From: Diploscapter coronatus
Lineage: Eukaryota; Nematoda; Chromadorea; Rhabditida; Rhabditidae
Assembly (NCBI GenBank): GCA_964036155.1
Contig: OZ038423.1
Span: 6,339,249 to 6,403,248, forward strand
Direction of reading: 5' to 3'
Length of the DNA stretch: 64,000 nt
How positions within the stretch are numbered: position 1 is the first letter of the stretch; every line of letters starts with the position of its first letter. Below the pieces are notes generated by a model that was given only the letters and a program-made list of their open reading frames with translations, was not told the origin of the DNA and did no database searches. Below are positions 5,334-64,000 of the stretch, piece after piece. Position numbers and translations under genes: made by a program.

Positions 5334-7106
5334 TTGGAAATCATAATATGATTTCATCTTTAACAATGAAACTTAGAACGTTCATAGAATGCGTTAAATA
5401 TATGAGTTCTTCAAAGCTTCGAGATTTTATCCAGATTAGTTTATATCACAAGAGCCTGCCAGCTATTTCATAAAGCATGAACTGTTCCTAGTATTTGTGC
5501 GAAAATGAAATTTTATTTCCTTTCCTCTGCATTTAGTGTTACAGTACGCATTTTAATTATAAAAATCAGAGTTTTATCAACATTACGAATTGGTTCAGAA
5601 AATAGCTAAAGATGCATATAACAGGGTGACTAAAGTCATCTCTTTAACTGTTATCTGAGCCAATTTGTGTGTACGTGAACTAGCTAAAATTTATTTGTGC
5701 AACTATTTTTTATTGTATTTTAGGATAGAATTCGAGTATTTTCTGCTCAAATAAGTCGTTCCATTGAAACATACCATACTCTTCAAAGTGTTGCGATATC
5801 CTCAGAACTAGGGAAGACGCTCGTCAGAAGTCGTTACGACCTTCCCCATGCAGTTTATTTTCGTCTGACGAAAGTACTCCTTTGATTTGAATTCTATTCA
5901 AATTTCGTTTATAAAGTCAAAGTCATAATTGCATTATTTTCTCATTTTCATGATTTTTGACAAAATTCTAAATCATTACTTCCTTCCGCAATTTTTCTCC
6001 TCAAATTTAATGTTGAAATCTAAATTCCTAGATTTCGAATTTTTCATCAATACGTGGATTTAGTTAGATAGGAACATGGAAATCAAACTAGCAATTGCAG
6101 TCAATTGACCCAGTGTTTGTTCAGATGTGCTCATGATTCTTGTATGAAGTAGCGACATCCGAATCGTGGTGTATTGTGATGCGAAGTCGAAAGGTCGGAG
6201 AGGCTAATCGAAAAAGTTGTTTGCCACGTCCCATGTTCGATTCTATAGAAACCACACAAACACAGCAAAGGGGAAGCTATTTGTTGAAACTGAAAAGTCT
6301 ATCACTGACAAGCTGTGGAAGTAATTTGCCACGAAACATGTAGAATTCCATAAAAGTTCATCAACATTTGCACAACTCGGTATGTAGGAAGTTTTCTGTC
6401 TGAGCATTTCAATAATGTTGAAATTGAATTTTTACTGAAAATCATAGATCGGCAAATTAGAAATCTATCGAGCACTAAATTCCCATTTTATGAAATGACA
6501 ATGAAGCAGAAATAAAGTAGTTCATAGTGGATCCTGAAAAATACTAGCGACTTTACTTTCATTTCTTGATTATAATTTCTTATAAAATTGAAAGATCGAT
6601 TTTTAAAAAAGTTTATTTATCAAATTATCCTAAGAAAATGACTAGAAATTGCCATTCTTCCGTCAGCGCAAAAATTTCGTGAACTTAATGAAGTTATTGC
6701 ATAACGAAATGACACAGGATATCGTGAATGAGCGAATTTGCGAACATCTTCTTAGTAAGATCAGAGATATCGAATTTTACTTTGTAAAATAGAAGCATTT
6801 CTTATTCGACTTTTGGGCAAAAACTGACAAATATTGGATTTTCATCCATAGCTTAGCATTGTAGATACTTTTTTTAAGCATTTTTAATAGTCATTCAATA
6901 TCTCATAAAGATAACAGCATGTCAACCTCCGAAACATTAGAAAGAATGACTCAGTTTTCAGTTTCAGAAAAATCTAACCAAACTTCAAAGTGATCATTGT
7001 GAAATATTGCGTAGCATTGTGTAATTTGCGTTGTTCTCGGTCTCTTTCTTCGCTATTAAACGCGAAATGTAATGCCGGTCAACATTCAGCATCCCATTCG
7101 CGTTTC

Positions 7107-7274
7107 CTATATAATCACCCTGTTCCTAACATCTCTCGACTGGTCCGGCGTTGTTGAGTTATCAGTCCATTCGACAAAGGTAGAAATACCCGAGTCACCA
7201 AAAAAATCAAAATAGACGTCCTGTGCGTCGAAAACCTTCTGAACCGTCTGAGGTCTATCAGCGGTATCGCCTTC
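7107..7274 (-). CDS. Possible terminal coding fragment, unassigned
   Basis: On the minus strand an open stretch of about 55 codons (VQKVFDAQDVYFDFFGDSG, then FVEWTDNSTTPDQSRDVRN) ends at a TAG at 7107-7109. The composition looks protein-like rather than AT-rich noise. Another such stretch lies at about 7600-7680 (QKRGEQAAFFGYYPVTQ). I could not join these to each other or to the signal-peptide exon at 8218-8346 with consistent splice phases. They may be exons of one gene, relics, or chance. Confidence 0.25.
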   Translation of the reverse strand, partial: EGDTADRPQTVQKVFDAQDVYFDFFGDSGISTFVEWTDNSTTPDQSRDVRNRVII

Positions 7275-8217
7275 TCAGCGGCACAACTCGACCGGTTACA
7301 CTTTTTTAGTTTTAAATAAAACTATATAGTTGATTCTAGAGACTTTTAAATATGCTTCTAAGCTTCATCTTGATAAATTTTTCATTTTTTCGAAAGAAAT
7401 AAAGCTCAAAGATTTTGCAATTTAGAAATCAATAGACTGCATTGAGAACTTTTGCGCTGCTTGTTGGCATCTCTGATTTAAGATTGAATTTTACTTTTCA
7501 ATACTGCCAATGCTGTCATTTTCCTCTCCGGATGTTCCCAGAAAGGTAGTTTCCAAAAAGTAGCTGATCGACGCGAGTCGAAACTCGGTCGGATTCTCAA
7601 GCTAACCTTGAGTAACTGGGTAATAACCAAAGAATGCAGCCTGTTCTCCTCTTTTCTGCACACATTGCGACGCATTTGAGCTGAGTTCCCCGATGCTATC
7701 GATCTATAGTCACAATTGAGAGAGCGTAGAGAGAAGAGGAATGAGAAATTTTACGTTTACAGACTCATTTGCTAGAAATGACTGTCAATTTTGAAATTGG
7801 TTAGACATTGTTTTAGAAGTATCGAACAGAAAATCTACCATCGCTTTGACATTGAATGGTTCCATTTTTCGAAATGAAATGACGGTATTTGATTTGAGTA
7901 AGATTACTATGTTCGAAGTACGAAATAACTAGAGTTTCTGATAATCTATAAATGAATGTTACTATTTCGTCGAAACAATTCAATTCAAATTCCGTGAACT
8001 TTTTAGTTAGCCCAATTTTGTGAATTATCGAGCTTTTATCTAAAACCATCAGCTCTAAAATAGGTAATCTTGATTCAATTTTTCTTTTTGTTTTTTTATC
8101 CAAGTGGTAATAATCGTCTATTGAAAATAATTTATTCTAGAGTATAATTTTGCTATAAGTACTCTGAATTAGGCAAAGCATTTTCTACTATACTAATTAG
8201 TGATTATGACTCGTAAC

Positions 8218-29611: not shown

Positions 29612-32600
29612 GTAAGTTATGATCGTTATGAGACACTTTTAAATTTTATGAGATTTCTTTGTCAAATAGCGATAACTTGAAACAAAATCAACGATATGCA
29701 GATTTGAATATGCAAAATTTGCATCACGTTGCTTTCCAAAATAGTCGTTAAAATATGTAATTCTTTTAATCGCCGAAACGTCTTGAAGTCTCTTACAAGT
29801 AACATGATAACTTCAGTGCATTTCATTTTCATGCCTTTAATTCTGTCTCAATTTGCAAGTAATTAACATTCTCTGGATTTTAATAATCACTTTGACACCA
29901 TTTTTGAGGTTAAGCGCGAAAATTTTGTCTCAATTTTTAAAATTTCGTTAACTATATTTTTCTGTTCATTGTTCCCGTTTTCGCAGTTCGCAGAATTGCT
30001 AAATACCGAAAAGTCTATCTTTTTCTACAATCAACATTTCAAATATCGGTAAAATAAAACACGAGGCACTATTCTAGTGCATTCCTCTAATAAATTATCA
30101 GTAATACAGTTTCATGAGTTTTTTTCTTACAAAATACTCCAATCCCTTATTGCATAGTTGCATAGGAATCCCAAATACAAATACATAACTTATCGGCAAA
30201 TTGGTTCATAAGAAGTCCGCATGGCACCCTGTTCAGGCAGGGAGCGGGCTAGATCGGATTAGGAAAGGATACTTTTTATCCTGCTCACTTGCCCTTCTCC
30301 AGTGTCTGTAGTTGCGAACTCTTCTTTATGCCTTTAGATAGATACATATGAGCGGGTAATTTGATCGTCACGAAAGCGATAGAGAATGAGAGTGAGAAAG
30401 AAGGTACCTATCGCTTGCATCCTCCTCTTCTTACCAAAATGGAACGAAGAATAGAATTCGGACCAGGATGAGCCTAGTTTCATGTGGAAAACGAATGAAC
30501 TCCAGTTTCACATGACTGAGTAAATTGGTGAGGAGATCGGAAAAATGTTAAATGAAAATGTACTTTTCAATGGACTATAAGAGTCAGGAAGCAATTTACA
30601 AGTGATTTAATTTTTGATCATTTTTTGCAAAAAGCCTATCGTCAACATTTAGAAATCTTTGAATACATTATGACGTAGCTCCTGGGTTTTTTTATCACAA
30701 CGTGCATAAACTTACAAATCTCCCGCGCATTTGAAAATAGCCCTCTTGAACCTCAATATGCTGAGGAATTTTGCTTGAAAATGGATGTGGTCCTCGGACC
30801 GACAATTTTGAGGTATTTTTGCACAATTCGCAGCCTCGATTTGCTTACCTCTGTTGGCTAAATGCACACGCAATTTATACGCCATAACTCGTTCGACGAA
30901 TCACTCACCGAACTCAGCTAACCATTTTCGCGTATATTCAAATGAATTTTAGTATTTGTAAAAAAAAAAGCTCCTTATTTCGACTTTTTACTGTGTTTAT
31001 GAGTTATATTTGGGCTTTTGAATGGCCGAATTTAAATTTTCTTACTCTCACTTCTCTTTTTACTACTGACTATTGTCCTCGTCCTCACGGAGCAGTCATC
31101 TCTCTATTGTCTTCTTTCGGCGCTTCAATTGTCTTCTTTGTCAGTGACTCCTTTGAACTTCGTGTCAATTCATGCCCGTCGTGTAATATTCGTGAATGAA
31201 ACCTCGCACTTTGAAGGAACATCCGGAGACAGATACATAGATGAGTATAGAACAAAGTTGATTGGCCATATTACATACAATGGCCTGCACCTAGCTGGCC
31301 ACAATGTATAAACCACATAAGGTAAGCATTGAGTTACAAGAGAAATTTTACTTTTTTAGATAATTAAACTTTTCCATTAGCTGACTTTTAGTTAAAGTCC
31401 TCTGATTGAAAATCTCATTGTGTCTGGGAAAAGAAGTCAGTCACTAAATATGCAAATGAGCTGGCAACACTTGCTTTCTGCAAACTAAGTTGCTCTAATT
31501 AACGCATTTCATCGCATCAGTTGGTATCTATCAAAGAAAATTCATTTTCATTTATCGCACTTAGCAAAAGGGGTCTTAGGAGATTCCTACGATCCACTTT
31601 TATCATTTTGTACCTAATTTTCAAATTAAAACAAAAACTAATTACAGTGGTGTTTCCTTTTACCTCCCTTTATTCACGTACGTATAAACATTGTGCGCAA
31701 GCGTAAATAAAACAGCGATTGATTATGAGATTTTGAATGGCGAGATTTGAAATTTTCCCGAATTATTCTTGAAGTCTTTACTCGTAAGAGCATCTCCTAT
31801 CACTCGAGATGTTTTGAAATAGAAAAGCGGCAGAATTTTCGAAATTTTATTGTGACTCGATGATTTCCCTCCTTTTCGTGTATCATTCCGAATGCATTGG
31901 CTAAGTGAATGCTGCATTCGAATATTTTTCCTTTAGATCCCCTCTCCGGATCTGCCATACATGACTTCTTTCTCACTCAATTAGCGTCCTGCTCATGTTT
32001 CGTGTCCCTTTCCTTGTCTCTTGATATCATCAGCCGTTAATCACATTGAAACACACAAGCTTTCTGGCTCTAGAGCGATAAAGTGCAAGTGATAGGGGAA
32101 AAGATAAAGAAATGAGCAGAAGGTGACAGAGTCGATAAGGCAATGGATGGATTGGAGCAGGAGGCTGAGAAGCCGACACCTTGCCAAAACAGGGCAAGCC
32201 TAGCACTAACTCCCTTAGGTCCTAAGCAAGATAGATTTCTCGTTTTTCAAGAATTGCTATTAACCAGCATTTCTATACAAACAACCACTCCGTTAACATG
32301 TGTTACTAAAATTGGCTGCAGGATATTACAAAATTCGGCATTGAAATAGCCAAAAATGAGCAATGCTTCGGAGGACGAATTGCTCTCCCATTTTTCAATG
32401 GATGCAACCTATCATTTGTCATCTAGACATCATAAAATCAACATCTGCCTCTTTTGGCAGTTTCGAGGATCAAGAATGGATGCGACAAACAAAGGACATG
32501 ACAGAATTAGCGAGACACAGACAAAGACGAAACGACTGGAAACAAAAACTAAGGATTAGGAGGAAAATGGACACTTGTGACTGCGCGAGTTGGCAGGACA

Positions 32601-50100: not shown

Positions 50101-53100
50101 CTTTGTCTAATATTCCAACTATAAATTAATTAACTTCTCACCGCAATAATCCCTGCATTGCGGTTGCGAGAATGTCCATTCTGCAAAGAAAATAATCGAT
50201 GATGGATGTTTCGCATTACTCTTGTTTCCTTACCTGACCACACGCCGTTCAATGCGCAGCAAGTCATGTTACAGAATTCATCGTATGGAGCTTGTGTCTG
50301 GTTTGTCACTGGCTGAAATATGGATATTTTCATAGGAAATAACACAATAGCTTGACTCGAGATCTATCGATTAGATGACAATAAAACAGGTAATCGCATC
50401 AAATAAACTCTAATAAGGCATGCCTGAGGCCCGCAAGCGTGTTGTCCATCGATTACCGTCATGCTATAACCAGCGCAGCACGTATCGTTCGGATAGGCAC
50501 AAACCCCAATGTTGCAATTGATGTCACGTTCAGGGTTACCTCTGAATTTGTCGGTCATTTAGCTTAATGATTTTTTAAACTTGAGGTAGGTTTCCCGTAT
50601 ATTTCAACCAGATTGGTCATTGGGAGACGTCCAAAATGTCGATTGTTTTAGATTTGAAAACTTTTATATCATTTTTGACAGATCCTGCTGCGAATTCGTC
50701 GGGCGCTAAGGAAGGAAAATCGTCAACCCATTAGTCGGTTGCATTTTAACAAAGAAAATTCGTCATGAAATCGCTTTGCAAAGTTCGCTTCAAAAATTTG
50801 ACTCCACTTGCGCTCTCTAATCATAACAGTCATTTTTTCTAAATTAAATAAAACTCCAACAGTCGAAATTGCCATGCATCATGTATCAAAGTTAGAGTAG
50901 AATTGGACATGAATTAAATGAGAACTTATGGAAAAGGTAGAACAATGTAAAGCTGATGATTAACCTGCATGGACATCCATTGGCCTCTGTCTGACAAGTA
51001 CGGATTTGATGAACAGTCGAGCAGGATCCGCAAGTCGTGTTGCAGCTGGTGGTCGTGGCCCATTCTGACCAGTAGCCTCCTGTCTGAGGACAGCACGTGT
51101 AGCACTTGTCTGAGGGGGGTGGAGATGGGTTCAACTGAATGGAAGATTGTCGATCTCTTGCGTAGAATATTATTTAATTTCAGAAACACGCTATTTAAAA
51201 TTGAACATTTTTGGTCAGAATAAATCCTATATTCATACGGGAAGAATAATTTGTATAAACATCTGATGGAAAGATTTTAATTTTGAAGCAACTTGAAATC
51301 TTACATCATCCTGGCAATAATATTGCCTAGCGTCTTTATTGAGGTATTTGGGTCGATTGTCACAGCAAGAAAGTCGAGGATAGAGGCAAACTTGACCTCC
51401 GCAAATCTGATCTCTTTCTGTCGGACCGCTAAATTTAGGTAGTTAAATTTATGTCTTGTTATCAGAAATTAGCAACTAATTTATAATCGGATTTAGTTCA
51501 AAGAAAATAATATGCTTTTCCTTTTGAATACTTTTCGTGAAGGACAAAATGAAGAATCACCTTTTCTACTTCCCTTTAGCTATCATTTTTCAATTTAAAA
51601 TGATATGAAGAAATACATTCATAAAATGGTCTTGAAATATTGTAATTCATTTGACAAAGAATGGTAAGGCGACTCTGACAAATTGGATAAGTGAAATTCT
51701 TACGAGCAAGGACAGTTGTAGTCTTGCGAAATACAGAATCTTTTGACTGTCGTTGTTCCACACATTCCGCAGGTATCTAAATTAAGCGTGTATGCTTGAA
51801 TAATATGATTTATTGCTGTACTGCTACCCTAGCTTTGCTAAGAAATAGTTTAAGACGCGTTCTTTGAGTAACCCGAACAAAGGCCGGACAACTGCAAAAG
51901 TGTCTCGGATCCGAACCAAACTTATATGGTGGATACACCCATGGGTCTTAATCACAAAAATTAGGCTTTTAGGTCCCGTCCCTAAAAGTGGGCGGGGCTA
52001 GGTGGGGGTCAAAGTTGAGCATTTTCACGATTTGACACCCCTCAGGGGGTACCAAGAAAACTTTTTTGTTATAAAAGATTTTCGAAAAATTTAAAAAGGA
52101 TGAACACAACCATGGAATGTACTTTCTAAAAATATAATGGTTTAGGGGGTCAGCCACTTGCTGGGTATGGGAGGGGGTCCTGAAGTCAAAAAGTGTCAAA
52201 AGTGGCAGTTTCAAAACATGCATTTTTTGCATAAAATCGATTTTCCTGAAAAGTTTAAGGCGAGTTCCAAAAATCTGATGATATATTCGAATTCTACGTA
52301 TCAAATTACCCTAAAAACAGTCATAAAATAGATAGGTTAGGTATGCCACTTTTGAGAAAAAAGCAATCAAATGGGCGTGGCCCGAGGGTCGAAGTTTTCA
52401 AAATCGATCGGAAAAATTCAAACGATACACCAATCGATAGCCCTTGAAAAACTAAGCAACTTTTGTGAAGACACCACATGGTTATCTATTATGGTATGGG
52501 AGTGGTACTCCAAAAACCAAAACTTAATGTCAATTTTCAAGAAAATGATACGAGAATATTTTCATAGGCAGTCTACCAGAATTTGAGCTCAAATTGAAGC
52601 TAGAGACATCTAGTATTTATTCCCATTCAATTTGGAGTCGAACAATACCAAACATGGTATGGTACCAAATGGTAGCGACCCATATGGTCAAGTCACCATT
52701 TAGTAACCAATATCCATCATGTTATATACCAAACGAAAGCCCTTATCGAACTGAGTAATATGCCGAAAACTACTTGAAAAACAGATTAGTCTATCGCCTT
52801 TTATGGTCATTTGAAGTTACTCCATTTTTGGTCTTTTTCAGTAGATGGTTATAACTAATTACAATGATGATATAATGAAACCACTTGCTGAAATTGATAG
52901 GAATGGGCTCGAATATTATTCTCCAGTCAATTTCAAGTAGAATGATATCCATTTTGGTATAGTACCACTCGAGTACCGTATGGGTGGTATATCATGGACC
53001 CATATGATAACATGATAAAGTGATAGCACGGTACTCTGGGAAGCAAAAATGAAGTATTGTCCTTCAACTGCTATATTCCGAAAAGATGTTTAAATTTGGT

Positions 53101-56100
53101 TTGATTTTCGAAAAGCTATGCATTTTTTGTCATTTTCGCGTGTATAACCATTCAAGCCTCCATACCACGCATACCATAATAGATAACCATGAGGTGTCTT
53201 CACAAAAGTTTCTTAGTTTTTCAAGAGCTATCAATTGGTATACAGATTGTGGGGTTAAACCCTCAAAATTGAAATTTCGATATTTGGGTCGCCAACTTTG
53301 GTGCAATGGCAAAGTGTAGGGTCATACCTAACCTATCTATTTTATGACTGTTTTTAGGGTAATTTGATACGTAGAATTCGAATATAGAATCAGATTTTTG
53401 GAACTCCTCCTAAACTTTTCAGGAAAATCGATTTTCTGCAAAATATGCATATTTTGAAACTGCCATTTTTGGCGCTTTTTGACTTTGGGACCCCCTTCAA
53501 CTCCAAGCAAGTGGCTGACCCCCTAAACCATTATATTTTTAGAAAGTACATTCCATGACCATGTTCATCCTTTTTAAATTTTTCGAAAATCTTTCATAGC
53601 AAAAAAGTTTTCTTTATACCCCCTGAGGGGTATCAAATCGTGAAAATGCTCAACTTTGACCCCCACCTAGCCCCGCCCACTTTTGGGGGCGGGACCTGAT
53701 CTTCCCATTTTTGTGATTAGGGTCCATGGGTGTATCCACCATATAAGTTTGGTTCGGATCCGAGACACTTTTGCAGTTGCCCGGCCACTCTTTATATTTT
53801 GTTCGGGTTACTCAAAGAATGCGTCTTAAGAATCGATATTCTCAAAATATCAACGAGCGAACCTGAGCACGGTCCTCCACTAGACCATTCGCTCCAAACT
53901 CCTCCCAGCGTGCAGCAATCCGTTAGATTTTGACCGCATTCCGGAATTGGATCTGGTTCAGTAGTTGGTGGCTGAAATAATTCAGTTTCAATTCAAAATA
54001 TTGAATCTCAATGTAAGAACGATTATTTTGGAATTCTTAGGAAGTTCACCCACTTCGAAAATTCATCCATTTGGAAATACTTACTGAGAGTTTTTTTCTT
54101 CAATCAGGAGTGTGTTAATTGCGAATTCTATTTCGAAAAACTTCTATTTTGAGTTTTATAATGTAATGTAGGGCTTCGATTTTGACTCCAAAAGGTTTTT
54201 TTCTTGCAATTAATCTTCGAGATGTTTCAATCCAAAGCTTTATGAACCTCCTGATGGGAAGTGCGTGGGCTATGTCTAAGATGAAGAGATTTGGTGAGTT
54301 ATCCTGACAAATACCAACTCCGCGCAGTACCTAACCTATTATATTCCAGCAGCGTTCAAATTTCAAAATTTATTGAATTTTCAAACGGATTTCGGAAAAT
54401 AGGTATTCATTAAATAAATGTATCATTTTATGAACATTGATAAAGGTGGCGATATATTTACAAATTGTGTTTTCGATTCTAAATGCTTATCATCCCATAT
54501 TTTTAAATTGGCGAACTTGCGCAGACATTTTTTTCCTCATTGTTTTAAAAGTAAAAATTCAACGTACTGTAGGTCCACACGTGGGTACACCTCCATCCGA
54601 CTGCATGAGAGTGTAGTTTCCACAGCAGGTGGTTGTGGCAGTCTTGTTGACATTATTACAAGGGTTCAAGTTGCAAACTTCATATTTGGTCGTGGAACCA
54701 CTAAATTTTGCATGGGTGCATTTAAAAATTCAATTTATTTTATTTTTTCTTGACTGTATTTATAAATGTTGATAAAAGCTTCTGTTGAACAATCTATCCA
54801 ATACGGGTACAATTTAAGTAGTGTTTAAACTTAAATTCGCTATTTTGATCATTTGAAGATTTAAATCTTATTTGGTAACTCACAGGCACATGCAGGTTGA
54901 ATCAGAAGTGCACGTTCTGGTGTATTGCCTCATTTCACAGCCTCCGCAGTTGACATTCGAATCATTAGAGCAAGGAACTGATACCTAAATGATTCGCATT
55001 ATCTTTAATGCTGACATTCATCCTATAAGGTGGCATAGCAGCTGGCAAAATATTCAGTACTCCGACTGCCCTTTAAATATTTCCTGCTTATCCAGCATAT
55101 TTATGATTATCTAAATATGACTCGACGTTTGCATACATGTCGTAGATATCGAATGATGAAAGTCTATCAAGTTTAAGCCCGATTGGGTCATTAAAGTCTC
55201 CAGAAGAGACTCAAAATTTCCAGGGCGGTTAGATACTCGTCCGTTACTGTAAATATCTTTCGTTTTTATTTATATATCAAAGCTCCGGATCCATCTGAGT
55301 ACAAACGAAGTGTGTTTACCGTCCATTCGCTCCAGGTTCCAAGCACACGGCATGTCTTAGTTTCAGTCAGGTTTCCATTGCAGCTGCAGCCGTACGATGC
55401 AGAACGGCAAGTTCTGTTTCTTGTGCTGGTGCCGCACTAAAACAAGATTAGTGCTATTATAGTTCTTTCTAAGTATTCAAATTTATTGTTTATATTTAAA
55501 TTCAGAAATACTATAATACTATAATCTTACCTGTGTGCATGTTCCAGCGGTGCAAGATGACCATTCACTCCAGGAACCTAAATCATAATAATTTGAGGAG
55601 ATTTTAACGATGTAACTTTTTTTTATTAATTCTTTTATGCTTATAGAGAGCAAATGATTTCTCGAATTTGATGTCGGTAGAATTTTGAACTCGCAAAAAT
55701 TTTGTAAAATTCTTTAATCAAAGAGATTTGTAGTTTTGACCAATCTAAACCCTCTAGTTAACTCGATAATTACCCTTCCTAATGTCCGTGATTATTCTTC
55801 AATGAAAGTTAGAATTTCAATTCACTTTTATGCATCCGAATCAAAAATTGACCATTTCTCTACCAAATGCGAACTCATTTCCCAAATGATTCAGCACCTT
55901 GCTAACGGTGAGTTGTAGAAATGAATGGAAAAGGCGTTCATAACTGACAAAATGATGAATACTCTAATGCAGTTCCGTTATATCAAAGTGATTTGAAATT
56001 TTGTAGAAATAGCCTACTCATTGGAATCAAAAGTCTTTTAAGCGTGCGACCATCAGATCGAATTTAGGGTATTTTTTCGCATACTTACCTTATATATAAT

Positions 56101-59100
56101 TCTGATTAGAATAGTAAAAACGCAAGATTTATAGTGTTAACATATTTTTGTCAGAAATTATAACGATTTACCGAAGAATCCGTTTGGAGGGCAGCAAGAA
56201 GTATCAGGAGCTGGTTCTGTGTAGTTCGGCTAAACTCGAAATAGCTAATATATTTCAACTGAATACAATTGAATACCTGTGGACCACAATAATAGACACG
56301 ATTCACACGATCGAGGATCTTATTGTAGTTACCGCAACAAGATAATCTAAAAGATGCATATCAAAAATCAGTTTTCTATCATCCGATAAAAATCAAGTAA
56401 ATACACTGGAGATTTAATTACCTTGGAAAAAGACAGACAGTAAGACCGCACATTTGAACTTTTGTCGTGTTGCCACTAAAATAAATTCTTGAAATCGTAA
56501 TATTGGAAAATATCATGTGACTTTTAAATTACTCGAAAGGTTTGACTTTATGATCTATTCTTGCATAATGATAAAGTTTGAAACCAAATACGATTTTTAA
56601 ACAGTACTATATTTTATTTTGAAATAGGAAGAATGGGGCGGAGTCATGAGTAAGTGTGCAAACCCTTGGCATTTTTTCTCTACAATTTTCTCTCTCGCTC
56701 CAACAAGAAGGGAAGATACAACGCTTCCTGTCTACACATCTCTGATTTCTCGAACTTTGTATCTCTTTCTTCTTTCAGTGCTGTTTCTCCTACCAGGGCT
56801 AGAACTACTCTTGCCGACACGCCTCTATTTTTCCTTTCAAAATGAATTCTGTCATAAAATATCAAATTTAATGTGTAAGATTCCCTTACATGCTTCCAAC
56901 CTTAAAATAGATTGTTCATTCAAGATTTTCGATTTGTGATGTTTGTTAAAAATATGTCGTACGTGCAAGGACATCCTTGGTCTTCAGTAATGCATTGTCT
57001 GGTGTATCTCTGCTGAGCGCAGCTACCGCAAGTGTCAGCGCAAGTGTCTGTTGTCGTCCAGTCTGACCACAGTCCTCCTGAAGGACAGCACATTGTCGTG
57101 GTTGTTGACTGAGTCTGAAAAGTGTAAATTTATTCGTATTTCGAAATAAACTAAAAATGCGAAAACTTTAGGGAAATACGTTCCATTTCTTCATTTGATT
57201 TGACTATGCTGTTATGATATTTTTTACTTTTTAAGTAAGATCAAAGTAAATCTAGTAGTAGGGGTTGATAGTATGGGGAATGATTGTGAGTAATCTGGTG
57301 TAATAAATTGCCATAAAATAAAATTAAAGTGAATTTATTTGGTATTTTAACTATGTAGTTAAGATTAAACGAACCGTAGTGGTTGTAGAAGACACTGTTG
57401 TGGATGTTGAAGGTGTCTAAAGTTAAAATAATCATTCAAGGGAAAAATAAAAAATAAATATTATCTACATGACTTTCTCTCAAAAACGCTTGGAATAGTA
57501 ACAAGGTGCTTTAAATGATTATCGTAAATAAAATCAATGTACAGTTGTCGTTGAAGTTGATGAGGATGAGGATGAGGTTGTCGTTGAAGTTGTAGTTGTA
57601 GTCTGAAACATAAGTATAGTTAAATACAAAAAGATGAATCGAACATGGCAAGAGAAAGTCTTAATTTTATGAAGATATGTCAGATTTAATTGAACCAAGT
57701 GATATATATAACTCAACATCGTGAAGATTTTTAACATTTTTGGTCGAGATGATAAATCAGATAAATTTAAAAACGACATTCAAAAGCAGGCAATAAAAAT
57801 AAAAATATTAAAAATAAGAATGTCACGATTTAAGTTTAATCTAGAAACTAGAAACAAGAGATATCTGAGGGAGGGAGTTCGAAATCGTGCTAGATTTGCA
57901 AAATAGCCAATTTTACATCAAAACAGTAATAGCTAGAAAATTTATAGGGTCACATACAATGTGATTATGTATTTAAAATGAGGATTAAACGGAATCTTAA
58001 ACACATACCGTAGTACTGGAACTTGTTGTCTGAAAATTTAATCTAGCGTTGGAAAATTGGTGAAACTAATGATTTTTCTTCTAAATCTTCAATTAATTTT
58101 ATAATAAAAGCAATGCTTACAGTAGTACTAGTCGATGGAGTAGTGGTCGACGTGGATGGAGTAGTAGTCGACGTGGATGGAGTTGTAGTACTAGTCGATG
58201 GAGTAGTAGTCGACGTGGATGGAGTAGTGGTCGACGTGGATGGAGTAGTAGTCGACGTGGATGGAGTTGTAGTACTAGTCGATGGAGTAGTAGTCGACGT
58301 GGATGGAGTAGTGGTCGACGTGGATGGAGTTGTAGTACTAGTTGATGGAGTGGTTGTCGACGTGGATGGAGTTGTAGTCGACGTGGATGGAGTAGTGGTC
58401 GACGTGGATGGAGTTGTAGTCGACGTGGATGGAGTAGTGGTCGACGTGGATGGCGTCTGGAAAATGATCATTTGATTTTTAACTCATTAAATGTCTTGAC
58501 AAATTTATCCTTGTTTCACTTTCATTGCGAATGAGATATCTTTATGAACCATAACCAAGTCTTATTAATTACAGAACATGAAGAGGACTTGTACAGAAAA
58601 ACGATTTTAATCAATCTTAGTCATAATAAGTCTTTTATTCTTCGATTGAAAATTCGCCTCAAAACAACCTATACGGTGGTTTTCCTTCTTTCTCTCCTTC
58701 GCGAAGGGGGAGGTATTTGTGCTCTCTACCTATGCGCGAGATGGAGTTCGAGAAAAGGCGCAACACAAGTAAAATGTAACAAAAAATTTTATTGATCAGA
58801 TAGTAAGTTGAGTTTTCAAAAACTATGCCATAAAATGTGTGATCTAGTTTAACCTTGATGTTACCCAAATTTATCGAGCTATATAACATTTTTTTAATAA
58901 AAACAATCATATGCTGCTTATGAGGTTAAAATCATGGAATTTTCACTATGACCGCCAATCAAGTGCCGGTGATCGCTTTAAATAGGCAAATAGCCCCTCG
59001 ATTATGGCATATATTTCACCCGTGATATCAGTACTCCTAATATCATGCTACAATCACCACGTTCGAATATGCCTAGTTGAGTTATGGGGCCACGACTGGA

Positions 59101-62100
59101 CCGAACCGACATATGACTGCAAAATAGGACTTTTACTCACACTGAATGACTCGAAAACTGTCAAATCGATATGCTAATTAGCCTAATTACATTCTACACT
59201 TAATTCCCTCCAATTTCATGTATGGTTTCCCTAGGCACTAAATTTCCAATTGTCTCCAACAGTATCCCCTAGAATTACTATAGAAAATTGATGATATCTG
59301 ACAGAAATAGAGGTTTTTGAGAGGTATGATTCCAGAAATACGTCATAGGTCCCAAAATCACCTACTAAAATGGGCTATTCTATCATATCTTACTATTCTA
59401 GAAGTTTATAGCCCATTACATCCATCTTTCTAGTCACTGGGTTCATTAATGTCCTCAAATACTATGCACCAACTGACATGATCTCATCCAAGTGCGTCTA
59501 GCGCTCTGGAATACACCCGAAAGCGTACGGCTTTTATCTATAATTTATCTAGGGCATCTGTTCTCCTAATATTGTGGGTCGGAGACACGATCTAGATATG
59601 TGACGGTCAGCAATGGGTCATTTTGTGACCTAATACCTCAAAAAATGACGAGGTTTAAACAAAAAATCCCTATATTCGGGAAAGCGCTGTTCGAAATAAT
59701 GTACCCAGACATTAGAATATGACCTGTGTTTCATCTACGGTAGATATTCTCTAAATTTCATACCTATTTAGACACGCTGTCTTGTGCCGTCCCTCAAAAA
59801 GCAGGAGTGGATGACGTTCATACGGAACGCATTGCAGCGAGCAAAAGGGAGGAGAATTTATTATCGATCAGAAAAACGGAATTAAAGCAGCAAAAAAGTT
59901 AATTACACTCAATTATCTCGCTCAAATATCAAAATAGAAGCAATTTCTGAAATTTTAAGACCGAATACGCGCAGGGACTCGTCAGAAGAGACGCTCGGGG
60001 CAGGTGGGAATGTCAGGGATGCGATTTTTCTCCTAAAATCGTTCGATTTCTGTTAAAATTAGTTTATTTTACGCGATCCCAGACTATTTCAAATAACTAA
60101 ATAGCTGAAGGGACTCAATGGGCATCGATTGAATATAAAATTAGCCTGGAGCATCACTTCCGAAACACAGCAGGGGTGCGAGAACGTACAAGTCCTTATA
60201 TAGGGGAATTTGATGTGATGGGGTTCTGAAGCCCCCGCGCTGAAATTTCGTTCGAAAACTACCAGAATTATTCAAAGACACCTTAAACTTGGATTATTTA
60301 TCGATTTTTCGCATGTCACTTGCTGGTATTCAACGCAGAGTTCAAAACGTACAGCACTTAACTTACTGAACTTTTCGACTTTTTAACCAACTTGAATCTT
60401 TACTAATTTCGATGATTGACAGCGCATTAGAATGCCAATTACACGCTATAGAAACTTGTCAAATAATTTTCCGAATAGTGCAGTCTATCGCAGACAATAA
60501 AACCGGAAGTGGACACAAATCAGGCCAATAAATTCGTACTCGCTGCGAACCGCGAATTTTCCTTTTTTCTGGAGCTACTTTTTCGGATTTTCGACGATTG
60601 TTCATGAAAATTAATATAATTTCACGCTAATTTGTTGAGAGACTTTCGCAAATACATGGTTACATGATTTTTAAAGATTTTTTGAAAGTCGTTAATTTCG
60701 TATTTCCGCGAATTGACTACTTTCGACACGATGTGTTTTTGTGAATACCCAAACAATCGTCGAAGTTTTTACATCAAAATATTCCACAGGCCTTATATTC
60801 CAAAGTTAGCTTCTGTTTTAGTCAACTTGGCACTAAAATTTTCGAGAAATTCGGCGTCTCCGGAAAAGAATCAATTTTTAGTGCGAATTCGTCATTGTGG
60901 AGAGCTAAGTAGTGCGTCTCCAGGACTGAAACTTGGTAAATCTAGTTGACATGTACAGCATATGTAAACATTAGACAAATCCTAGGACCCGCAACTGAGA
61001 TTCTGATAATCCGCGAAATATAAAAGAAGTCAACGCTGAAACGAAAGAGAGTGCAGAGAAAAAGATTCCCAAAGACAGGAAAGAAAGGGGAAAGCGAGAG
61101 GCACAATGCAAACTCTGCGTCTCTAGCCTATTCCATAAATGATTGATTTTTCAGTTTTCAGTTTTCGCATTTCAATTTTTTATTTTTTATTTTCGGAAAT
61201 GAATGCAGAACCCAATGACATATCCATTCATGGGTAAACCAGTGCGGTGGGGTCAGTTTGGCAAAATGACTGGCGGTCCCTCCCTACATGCGAGTTTCAA
61301 AATATTAGTTATTCTACATGCCCTTTTGCTTTCTAGGGGGTGGGAAAAATACAAAGAGAAGGCGGCGTGCAACAAGATAATTGTTTGTTTGGATTATTAT
61401 CCTACAAAAGCAGTTCTAATGGATGATGACGATCCCTTTTTAATCATCAGCAACAAGCCTTGTCATTTCCAGAAGAATCAACGAAAATAAGAACGAACAA
61501 GTTCTAGTGGACGCAGAGAGCAGCAGCAGTAGCATATGTGATGTTGGTGCGAGTGACAAATGGGATTATTCGAGTGAAAAGAAGCAAACTCTTACAGTGG
61601 TGCTAGTCGATGGAGTGGTAGTCGATGTGGATGGAGTGGTAGTACTAGTCGATGGAGTAGTAGTACTGGTCGACGGAGTGCTGGTGGTCGACGTGGATGG
61701 AGTTGTAGTACTGGTCGACGGAGTGGTGGTGGTCGACGTGGATGGAGTTGTAGTACTGGTCGACGGAGTGGTGGTGGTCGACGTGGATGGCGTCTGAAAT
61801 CGCCAGTCACTCGGGAATGCAAAATGTCAATTTTCATCAGTACTACTTTGTTTTGGGTCATTCAGAAATTCAATTGATTAATTCACGCTTACAGTAGTAC
61901 TAGTCGACGGAGTGGTGGTGGTCGACGTGGATGGCGTCTGAAATCGCCATGCTCACAACACTCGGGAATGCAAAATGTCAATTTTCATCAGTACTACTTT
62001 GTTTTGGGTCATTCAGAAATTCAATTGATTAATTCACGCTTACAGTAGTACTAGTCGACGGAGTGGTGGTGGTCGACGTGGATGGCGTCTGAAATCGCCA

Positions 62101-64000
62101 TGCTCACAACACTCGGGAATGCAAAATGTCAATTTTCATCAGTACTACTTTGTTTTGGGTCACTCGGAAAATTCAGAAATTCGATGAATTAATTCGCTTA
62201 CAGTAGTACTAGTCGACGGAGTGGTGGTGGTCGACGTGGATGGCGTCTGAAATCGCCATGCTCACAACACTCGGGAATGCAAAATGTCAATTTTCATCAG
62301 TACTACTTTGTTTTGGGTCATTCAGAAATTCAATTGATTAATTCACGCTTACAGTAGTACTAGTCGACGGAGTGGTGGTGGTCGACGTGGATGGCGTCTG
62401 AAATCGCCAGTCACTCGGGAATGCAAAATGTCAATTTTCATCAGTACTACTTTGTTTTGGGTCATTCAGAAATTCAATTGATTAATTCACGCTTACAGTA
62501 GTACTAGTCGACGGAGTGGTGGTGGTCGACGTGGATGGCGTCTGAAATCGCCATGCTCACAACACTCGGGAATGCAAAATGTCAATTTTCATCAGTACTA
62601 CTTTGTTTTGGGTCATTCAGAAATTCAATTGATTAATTCACGCTTACAGTAGTACTGGTCGACGGAGTGGTGGTGGTCGACGTGGATGGCGTCTGAAATC
62701 GCCATGCTCACAACACTCGGGAATGCAAAATGTCAATTTTCATCAGTACTACTTTGTTTTGGGTCACTCGGAAAATTCAGAAATTCGATGAATTAATTCG
62801 CTTACAGTAGTACTAGTCGACGGAGTGGTGGTGGTCGACGTGGATGGCGTCTGAAATCGCCAGTCACTCGGGAATGCAAAATGTCAATTTTCATCAGTAC
62901 TACTGTGTTTTGGGTCACTCGGAAAATTCAGAAAATCGATGAATTAATTCGCTTACAGTAGTACTAGTCGACGGAGTGGTGGTGGTCGACGTGGATGGAG
63001 TTGTAGTACTGGTCGACGGAGTGGTGGTGGTCGACGTGGATGGCGTCTGAAATCGCCAGTCACTCGGGAATGCAAAATGTCAATTTTCATCAGTACTACT
63101 TTGTTTTGGGTCATTCAGAAATTCAATTGATTAATTCACGCTTACAGTAGTACTAGTCGACGGAGTGGTGGTGGTCGACGTGGATGGCGTCTGAAATCGC
63201 CATGCTCACAACACTCGGGAATGCAAAATGTCAATTTTCATCAGTACTACTTTGTTTTGGGTCATTCAGAAATTCAATTGATTAATTCACGCTTACAGTA
63301 GTACTAGTCGACGGAGTGGTGGTGGTCGACGTGGATGGCGTCTGAAATCGCCATGCTCACAACACTCGGGAATGCAAAATGTCAATTTTCATCAGTACTA
63401 CTTTGTTTTGGGTCATTCAGAAATTCAATTGATTAATTCACGCTTACAGTAGTACTAGTCGACGGAGTGGTGGTGGTCGACGTGGATGGCGTCTGAAATC
63501 GCCAGTCACTCGGGAATGCAAAATGTCAATTTTCATCAGTACTACTGTGTTTTGGGTCACTCGGAAAATTCAGAAATTCGATGAATTAATTCGCTTACAG
63601 TAGTACTGGTCGACGGAGTGGTGGTGGTCGACGTGGATGGCGTCTGAAATCGCCAGTCACTCGGGAATGCAAAATGTCAATTTTCATCAGTACTACTGTG
63701 TTTTGGGTCACTCGGAAAATTCAGAAATTCGATGAATTAATTCGCTTACAGTAGTACTGGTCGACGGAGTGGTGGTGGTCGACGTGGATGGCGTCTGAAA
63801 TCGCCAGTCACTCGGGAATGCAAAATGTCAATTTTCATCAGTACTACTGTGTTTTGGGTCACTCGGAAAATTCAGAAATTCGATGAATTAATTCACGCTT
63901 ACAGTAGTACTGGTCGACGGAGTGGTGGTGGTCGACGTGGATGGCGTCTGAAATCGCCAGTCACTCGGGAATGCAAAATGTCAATTTTCATCAGTACTAC
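47101..64000 (-). CDS. Giant secreted mucin-like / thrombospondin type-1 repeat protein (3' part, 47 exons visible)
   Basis: The gene runs right to left, is open beyond 64000 and ends at TAA 47101-47103. Its 5' part in the window (14 array exons at 61893-63947, then 61596-61793, 58121-58456, 58009-58029, 57543-57602, 57375-57416) encodes only Thr, Ser, Pro and a little Val, a likely O-glycosylated region. The 3' part is 28 exons with fully consistent phases (823 aa): 56963-57114, 56422-56475, 56277-56346, 56172-56229, 55531-55577, 55320-55436, 54884-54984, 54568-54700, 53863-53971, 51704-51776, 51305-51428, 50965-51134, 50424-50541, 50234-50312, 50142-50180, 49944-50007, 49844-49897, 49728-49791, 49613-49676, 49513-49560, 49272-49335, 48804-48973, 48645-48701, 48171-48234, 48003-48123, 47856-47925, 47616-47673, 47101-47230. 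Nine modules follow the plan WSEW...CG.C...RTC...GCPC-G(D/N).T...C...VC.YPR.SCC...Y.CGP. Nematodes have several such TSP1 proteins; function is unknown, presumably extracellular matrix or coat. Confidence 0.9.
51854..53825. mobile_element. 1972-bp foldback element flanked by TTAA, inside a TSP-gene intron
   Basis: Inverted arms of roughly 650-700 bp begin GACGCGTTCTTTGAGTAACC on the left and, inverted, GACGCATTCTTTGAGTAACC on the right. They match through GGATCCGAACCAAACTTATA, a CCCGCCC-rich stretch and TTTTCAAGRGCTATCRATTG. TTAA flanks both ends (51850-51853 and 53826-53829), as for piggyBac-type insertion. The central ~650 bp has no transposase. The host intron (51777-53862) splits the Asp codon of a CSDTCG motif, so splicing should restore the domain. 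Confidence 0.85.
58009..58029 (-). other. 21-nt exon (TTSSSTT) in the mucin region
   Basis: A seven-codon phase 0-0 exon bounded by TTTTCAG and GTATGT. It equals one 21-nt repeat unit of the neighbouring exon in length, suggesting exon and repeat unit share an origin. Confidence 0.7.
58121..58456 (-). repeat. Coding minisatellite exon: 16 tandem 21-nt units (TPSTSTT-type)
   Basis: The exon is exactly 336 nt (112 codons), or 16 copies of a seven-residue unit of Thr, Pro and Ser. It is bounded by TCCAG and GTAAGC in phase 0-0. The copies differ mainly at synonymous positions (GTCGAC versus ACTAGT variants). Confidence 0.9.
58457..61595 (-). other. 3.1-kb intron of the mucin/TSP gene without recognised content
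   Basis: This separates two Thr/Ser exons, both phase 0. The middle (about 58.95-60.3 kb) is less AT-rich than the flanks and looks like unique or inserted DNA, but I found no terminal repeats, transposase motif or exon chain. The small open frames here lack splice or composition support. Confidence 0.4.
61596..64000 (-). repeat. Tandem exon-intron array: 45-nt mucin exons every ~151 bp
   Basis: The first exon, 61596-61793 (198 nt, 66 codons), is followed upstream by 14 near-identical exons: 61893-61937, 62044-62088, 62202-62246, 62353-62397, 62497-62541, 62648-62692, 62806-62850, 62957-63046 (a double, 90 nt), 63146-63190, 63297-63341, 63448-63492, 63599-63643, 63750-63794, 63903-63947. Each single exon encodes TPSTSTTTTPSTSTT, with TTTCAG before it and GTAAGC after it, phase 0-0. 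Introns are about 99-113 bp and nearly identical. Unit spacing is 144-158 bp, or 196 bp at the double exon. The array continues past the window. Confidence 0.92.

Follow-up and report, generated by a model that had tools for sequence, protein, structure and literature searches.

A probable giant mucin-type gene built from a satellite-like array of exon-plus-intron units in the nematode Diploscapter coronatus

Described repeat genes and the array in the window

Genes in which an exon and its intron are repeated together are already known, and tandemly repeated schistosome exons coding for 81-base repeats were reportedly described in 1988. In human LPA, the kringle repeats likewise form a coding repeat with introns, schistosome micro-exon genes keep most of their coding sequence in symmetric exons of no more than about 36 nucleotides (nt), the spider silk gene Flag has about a dozen exons, far fewer than are considered here, and the exons of titin are not copies of one cassette. 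Here we analyse a 64,000-nt stretch of the nematode Diploscapter coronatus (hereafter the window; contig OZ038423.1, positions 6,339,249 to 6,403,248), the end of which enters a tandem array of repeat exons, each with its own intron. This array very probably belongs to a giant mucin-type gene, whose threonine-, serine- and proline-rich domain would be encoded by satellite-like repetition of complete splicing cassettes. What is new is the scale and compactness; no earlier report of such an array was found in the literature searched, which covers subscription journals thinly and is no proof of absence. The window contig is referred to as C2 and the second large contig as C1, and extended coordinates continue the window numbering along C2.

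The nearest described kind, by analogy rather than by membership, would be the SmPoMuc mucins of Schistosoma mansoni, in which a 27-bp exon lies in tandem genomic repeats of ~1 kb, at most 20 per gene, which undergo concerted evolution and hold complementary intronic sequences of 12–13 nt (PMC2576457). As in that mucin family, the repeat exon and flanking intron are amplified here as one genomic unit; by contrast, the exons are mostly of 42–147 nt, in units of ~140–250 nt, numbering 27 to ~455 per array, and the phylum is unrelated. Complementary elements are likewise found in the repeat introns, the complement here being the exon 3′ end, and this resemblance is loose because the SmPoMuc elements lie in introns flanking exon 2. 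The original prediction, made from the sequence alone, that mucin repeats are normally a single uninterrupted exon is fair as a generalization, but SmPoMuc had already provided intron-carrying ones (PMC2576457).

Other systems are more remote. Micro-exon genes produce proteins, many of them seemingly secreted, from small symmetric exons that can be omitted in frame (PMC4015677), whereas the array exons measure 42–198 nt, with three others of 990–1554 nt, and are near-identical copies forming one homogenised array, hundreds per gene. Near-identical introns within a gene are also described for Flag and for Argiope trifasciata MaSp2, but those introns measure 496–2620 bp as opposed to ~100 nt here, and the product is silk, not mucin (PMC3522626). 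DPY-6, a secreted nematode protein of the cuticle or precuticle, shares the large mucin-like domain (PMC11304992) but differs from the product predicted here, which would have C6-like and TSP1-like ends. Titin, with 363 exons, has been called the gene with the largest exon number (PMC12198301); hundreds of exons in one gene are the common trait, and the predicted window gene, with 316 array exons and others, comes close to that number, whereas the gene containing the array at C1:6607 (~455 array exons, estimated) may exceed it. The main text of the D. coronatus genome paper does not contain the word ‘mucin’ (PMC5483258).

Anatomy and splicing of the array

On the minus strand, 15 array exons and 14 array introns lie complete within the window (Table 1), every exon being of phase 0-0 and every intron having GT..AG ends. 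Successive units start mostly 151 bp apart (144, 151, 153 and 158), with spacings of 189 and 297 beside the longer exons. The original prediction of tandem exon-plus-intron units with symmetric exons of lengths divisible by 3 is borne out, its count of 14 exons of 45 or 90 nt was correct, and the 198-nt exon at the 3′ end of the array is an addition to it. The extent that it gave holds for the window part but not for the whole: in the next 129 kb of C2, which were also read, the array continues to extended coordinate 111785, ~48 kb beyond the window end, and in full it occupies C2:6400844-6451033, 50.2 kb with 316 repeat exons, just upstream of which lies one further edge exon with a different start. 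The exons are 45 nt long in 271 of the 316 cases, and the other lengths (42 and 63–147 nt) cluster near the 5′ end of the gene, the exceptions towards the 3′ end being the 198-nt exon and two of 90 nt. Exons sum to 16,425 nt (5,475 codons) and introns to 33,872 nt. There are 106 distinct units among the 316, 47 of them seen once. Higher-order repeats were considered and rejected: although Tandem Repeats Finder reported periods of 311 and 455, exact unit identity peaks at only 0.119 at lag 4 versus a mean of 0.035, one C1 sample reaching 0.30 at lag 14.

Table 1. Coordinates of the arrays, repeat exons and flanking exons; plain numbers are window positions.
Feature	Location	Strand	Description
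Array 3′ end inside the window	61596..64000	-	continues beyond the window to C2:6451033
14 repeat exons	61893..63947	-	13 x 45 nt TPSTSTTTTPSTSTT, one 90-nt double exon 62957-63046; phase 0-0; introns 99-113 nt
Last array exon	61596..61793	-	198 nt = 66 residues; TPSTSTT-type repeats; donor GTAAGA
Example array intron	61794..61892	-	99 nt; GTAAGC...TTTCAG; carries AGTAGTACT, complementary to the exon 3′ end
Intron between array and next Thr/Ser/Pro exon	58457..61595	-	3.1 kb; boundaries by eye; carries dispersed repeat
Next exon	58121..58456	-	336 nt = 16 x TPSTSTT; intron-free; donor GTAAGC; acceptor by eye
Three short Thr/Ser exons	57375..58029	-	~58009-58029 (TTSSSTT), 57543-57602, 57375-57416; 21, 60, 42 nt; phase 0; by eye
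TSP1-like cysteine-rich exon	56963..57114	-	CCPSGGLWSDW...CPCT; first of several C-terminal modules; boundaries by eye
Further WSEW-type cysteine-rich exons	50900..55580	-	at 55578, 55340, 53902, 51077; putatively same gene
Window array	C2:6400 kb	-	316 units, read whole
Array	C1:6742963 on		~278 units; 274 exact matches of array-specific exon; 129 such per 131 acceptor patterns in three samples
Array	C2:6277866 on		~305 units; 323 donor-pattern matches minus 18 in window array
Array	C1:6607766 on		~455 units; 311 matches of donor variant carried by 69/101 units in two samples
Array (L033)	C1:13.79 Mb		27 units counted, 28 acceptors
Intron-free repeat exon	C1:6747983-6749536		1554 nt, open, in frame
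Intron-free repeat exon	C1:6792802-6794340		1539 nt, open, in frame
Intron-free repeat exon	C1:6788669-6789658		990 nt, open, in frame

The cassette would consist of a symmetric phase-0 exon, usually of 45 nt (15 residues) in the window array, and one intron of ~100 nt, and unequal exchange, slippage or conversion is likely to have added, removed and homogenised such units, as the array-specific units and the unequal sizes of the haplotype arrays suggest. Because each unit carries its own in-phase 5′ and 3′ splice sites, a change in copy number stays in frame, as had been foreseen from the symmetric exons with lengths divisible by 3; the companion claim that length would change in steps of 15 residues applies to the 45-nt units but not generally, given the other exon lengths of the arrays and of C1. 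A single transcript most likely contains all exons and encodes more than 5,000 residues with dense potential O-glycosylation sites, with C6-like sequence on the N-terminal and TSP1-like modules on the C-terminal side of the repeat domain, and the product would probably be secreted and of the cuticle or surface-coat type.

A scan for an intron-core word, with 3 mismatches allowed, gave 624 anchors, 3 of them clipped by stretch ends; in each of the 621 array introns that were read from end to end, the donor is GTRAG and the acceptor YAG (one 3143-nt intron in stretch L044 is excluded from the 621). The alternation of donors and acceptors holds throughout once GTRAG is allowed, GTGAGC donors being present in the C1 arrays, and in the array at C2:6277 kb (L032) all 47 introns read end in TTTTAG rather than TTTCAG. 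Retention of an intron brings an in-frame stop in 316/316 cases in the window array and in 39/44, 56/56, 47/47, 29/37, 66/67 and 24/27 cases in the other samples; at C1:13.79 none of 27 introns does so, and those introns shift the frame instead.

A second regularity links each exon to its intron. The exon end AGTACTACT, directly before the GT, has its complement in its own intron (the element given for the example intron in Table 1), and in many units ACAGTAGTACT extends the complement over the exon–intron junction. The dominant unit pairs over 10–12 nt in eight samples (G-U allowed), versus means of 6.2–6.9 and maxima of 9–12 in 100 shuffles, and pairing of at least 10 bp is found in 618 of the 621 introns and in 153/156 distinct exon–intron pairs versus 22/780 mononucleotide shuffles. 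AGTAGTRC is present in 619 of the 621, inside the best-conserved part of an intron the 5′ half of which varies; folding of the dominant unit is predicted to give the hairpin in seven of eight samples, and in a single control, the related exon at 58.1 kb, which lacks the array intron, the pairing reaches only 6. No compensatory changes beyond one G-U replacement were found in the hairpin among the array units, and shared descent could account for part of the conservation. Speculatively, the element might mask or localise the 5′ splice site and so help each exon to pick the intron that belongs to it, where hundreds of equal introns compete. A bolder version, which we advance only tentatively, would give these genes more exons than any other known (~455 near-identical ones in a single allele) and make the pre-mRNA a self-similar splicing substrate, with hairpins setting the donor–acceptor joins and graded mucin lengths within one animal arising from two haplotype arrays that evolve independently and from splicing.

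It is rather unlikely, though worth serious attention, that the gene is real and transcribed but that splicing sets most of the length variation, the number of exons per transcript varying through skipping or through exon repetition of the kind proposed for SmPoMuc. Symmetric exons and near-identical splice sites permit any in-frame join, complementary intron and exon elements are present, and SmPoMuc transcripts can contain as many as 100 repeats although the genes have no more than 20 (PMC2576457). However, the element pairs with the end of the exon to which it belongs and could equally keep splicing local.

Coding evidence

The reading of a continuously spliced coding array draws most on the pattern of variation within the exons. 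We read 619 exons from eight stretches of five arrays (316 + 43 + 57 + 48 + 27 + 36 + 67 + 25) and the three long C1 exons, and every one of the 622 has a length that is a multiple of 3 and zero in-frame stops; intron lengths (91–118 nt) fall into 19 classes, many of them non-multiples of 3. Variation was counted in array/length classes with at least five members and without the three long exons. Variable exon sites number 60/382 at third, 4/382 at first and 3/382 at second codon positions, and those of introns are spread over the three phases as 125/132/135 among 1883, with no period. Since variation concentrates at third codon positions whereas the introns are aperiodic, translation of the repeat exons, and with it the coding reading of the array, is strongly supported. 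Of the codon variants, 61/68 are synonymous as compared with 31.5% expected for random changes, and 19/25 are so after collapsing per array; the amino acid replacements seen inside arrays are S-T, P-A and T-I.

The composition agrees with the predicted mucin-like coding. Threonine, serine or proline account for 11,852 of the 12,011 codons in the 619 exons (6516, 3707 and 1629, respectively; the rest are M 128, A 26 and I 5) and for 1,359 of the 1,361 codons in the three long ones, a dense Thr/Ser content with Pro that is that of mucin-type tandem repeats. A Pfam search with a repeat open reading frame gave zero matches. In the C1 counterpart of the window array, the exons TPSSSTTTMPSSSTT and TPSSSTTTMPSTSTT retain the length of 45 nt.

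Several points weigh against the proposed gene. The synonymous share of codon variants falls to 10/15 after full collapse across arrays, and the counts are non-independent because the units are copies, which makes the P value too small. The lack of stops in exons is weak evidence, because both sense frame 1 and an antisense frame are likewise free of stops, and exon lengths step largely by 21 nt, as slippage alone could produce. As to the ends of the gene, the match of the TSP1-like exon to PF22195 is weak, below the Pfam curated cut-off, and the C6-like exons upstream, in pieces joined by eye, score 22.6 bits for PF01681 versus a cut-off of 27.9 (E 1.6e-4), two of six alignments of such pieces having a pair of 1-nt gaps. 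The signal-peptide-like exon, the C6 exons and the C-terminal modules are joined by position and strand only, and the unit counts are drawn from a single assembly.

The 21-nt steps, for which slippage suffices, and the partly open other frames would also suit a non-coding satellite in a large intron, with transcripts that skip the array or use few of its units and with frames that are a by-product of a 21-nt repeat. Such a satellite is nevertheless very unlikely: 60 of the 67 variable exon sites are at third codon positions while the introns are aperiodic, the 45-nt unit arises by an in-frame addition of 3 nt with 0/622 exons off frame, and splice sites are intact in 621 introns, the same rules being followed in five diverged arrays.

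Array family, evolution and flanking sequences

The search covered 169.7 Mb: two chromosome-sized contigs, one of 87.7 Mb and the other of 82.0 Mb, and ~13.4 kb besides. A 16-base acceptor/exon-start pattern has 1378 forward matches, 5 reverse matches and 0 for the backwards control, and a chance origin of the repeated pattern is excluded. Five arrays (at least five, going by the first 100 places for each pattern, with small extra clusters possible) explain nearly all matches, and at least one match lies at C1:28.3 Mb. The sizes ~278, ~305 and ~455 are extrapolations from pattern counts, for which subtraction of 308, 27 and ~278 from 1378 provides a cross-check, leaving ~765 for the other two arrays versus ~760 by donor patterns. 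D. coronatus has a 170-Mb diploid assembly, 2n=2, a mean heterozygosity of 5.7% and reproduces by parthenogenesis (PMC5483258). The non-repeat stretch 30000-31500 of the window, which lies between both C2 arrays, has one other copy, 96% identical, at C1:6717145 between both C1 arrays, and because this copy is collinear, C1 and C2 behave here as collinear haplotypes. The haplotype arrays are unequal in size (316 versus ~278 and ~305 versus ~455, the last three being estimates), and the original prediction of genetic length variation is thus supported as between two chromosomes, in array size as well as unit sequence.

Intron identity is 0.92–0.99 within arrays, 0.915 between the two C2 arrays and 0.77–0.86 between C1 and C2 arrays; among the C1 arrays it is 0.923 for 6607 with 13.79, and 0.883 and 0.850 for 6742 with these. 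Grouping by chromosome is only partial, because C1:6742 is about as near to C2 (0.852, 0.861) as to C1:13.79. A midpoint-rooted tree of 87 distinct introns, with singletons excluded in arrays having at least 25 distinct introns, places the two C2 arrays in one group, C2:6276 nesting near some window units, and the units of C1:6742 form no single group. Judging from these comparisons, homogenisation is clear within arrays and less so within chromosomes. Parthenogenesis and high heterozygosity suggest that homologues may lack exchange in this worm, and, if so, sister-chromatid exchange or slippage must homogenise the arrays.

Least likely of all is an artefact of assembly behind the copy numbers, with expansion of an array that is in truth short or confusion between loci: highly repetitive arrays are hard to assemble and the assembly is a single one, so that this concern of the original prediction still stands, but it is lessened by five arrays with different unit sequences that follow the same rules and by zero N in the 193-kb stretch read. 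Long reads should be placeable, because 106 of the 316 units are distinct and 47 occur once.

Uninterrupted repeat exons are also present in every array whose 3′ edge was read, those of the window array being of 198 and 336 nt, and intron-carrying and intron-free forms of the repeat consequently coexist in one gene. The 1554-nt and 1539-nt C1 exons adjoin copies of the dispersed repeat that is also present in the 3.1-kb intron of the window. The internal junctions AGTACTACAACTCC of the 336-nt exon and of the 90-nt double exon resemble, yet differ from, the spliced exon–exon junction, and they are possibly a trace of intron loss or of an intron-free ancestor. Nine exon units with a spacing of 156–159 bp lie at C1:6742963-6744227, on the 3′ side of the dispersed-repeat copy of C1; at the place matching these nine units C2 has the intron-free 336-nt exon, and the haplotypes may thus differ in intron presence at the same place. 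A 1254-nt stretch in L030 was rejected as an exon: it contains 24 stops and is the last array exon running into the flank, with a donor that is off-pattern.

Taken together, the arrays suggest satellite-like behaviour of a spliced coding gene, in which the amplified and homogenised unit is a whole exon plus intron and selection keeps frame and splice sites through changes in copy number. Two diverged haplotypes in one animal, whose homologues may not exchange, allow array evolution to be compared within single chromosomes, and hundreds of equal donors and acceptors per transcript would put the fidelity of splicing to an extreme test. Such genes are likely to be overlooked or fragmented in automated annotation.

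Outside the repeats, the first TSP1-like exon is in frame in all five other copies, with 0, 4, 4, 6 and 8 nt changes of 151, amounting to no residue change in three copies, one in another and five in an inverted C2 copy. The C6-like pieces keep their cysteines in both copies compared, and a protein search with one such piece gave no candidate. Farther upstream, at extended coordinate 116222, a signal-peptide-like exon recognised by eye directly follows a TTTCAG acceptor. An inverted copy of the 3′ flank, 96% identical, occupies C2:6229649-6230656 (L023), ~46 kb from the C2:6276 copy, and a partial copy lies at C1:6558218. The dispersed repeat (window 60100-61100) has at least 41 genome matches among those listed, itself included, the best other copy being 98% identical at C2:26640935. 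Two further observations concern stretch L014, where 950-1150 is a member of a dispersed family of dozens of copies, a number of them in inverted pairs, and 6738-7250 holds an open frame (HDNARLHVA...SPGLAPSDYHLF), which we take to resemble a mariner-type transposase. The window contains no tRNA genes, and a DNA search against a phage collection gave zero matches; a complete SL2 spliced-leader RNA gene (52.7 bits), of a kind that marks rhabditid nematodes, lies at 7519-7628 on the minus strand.

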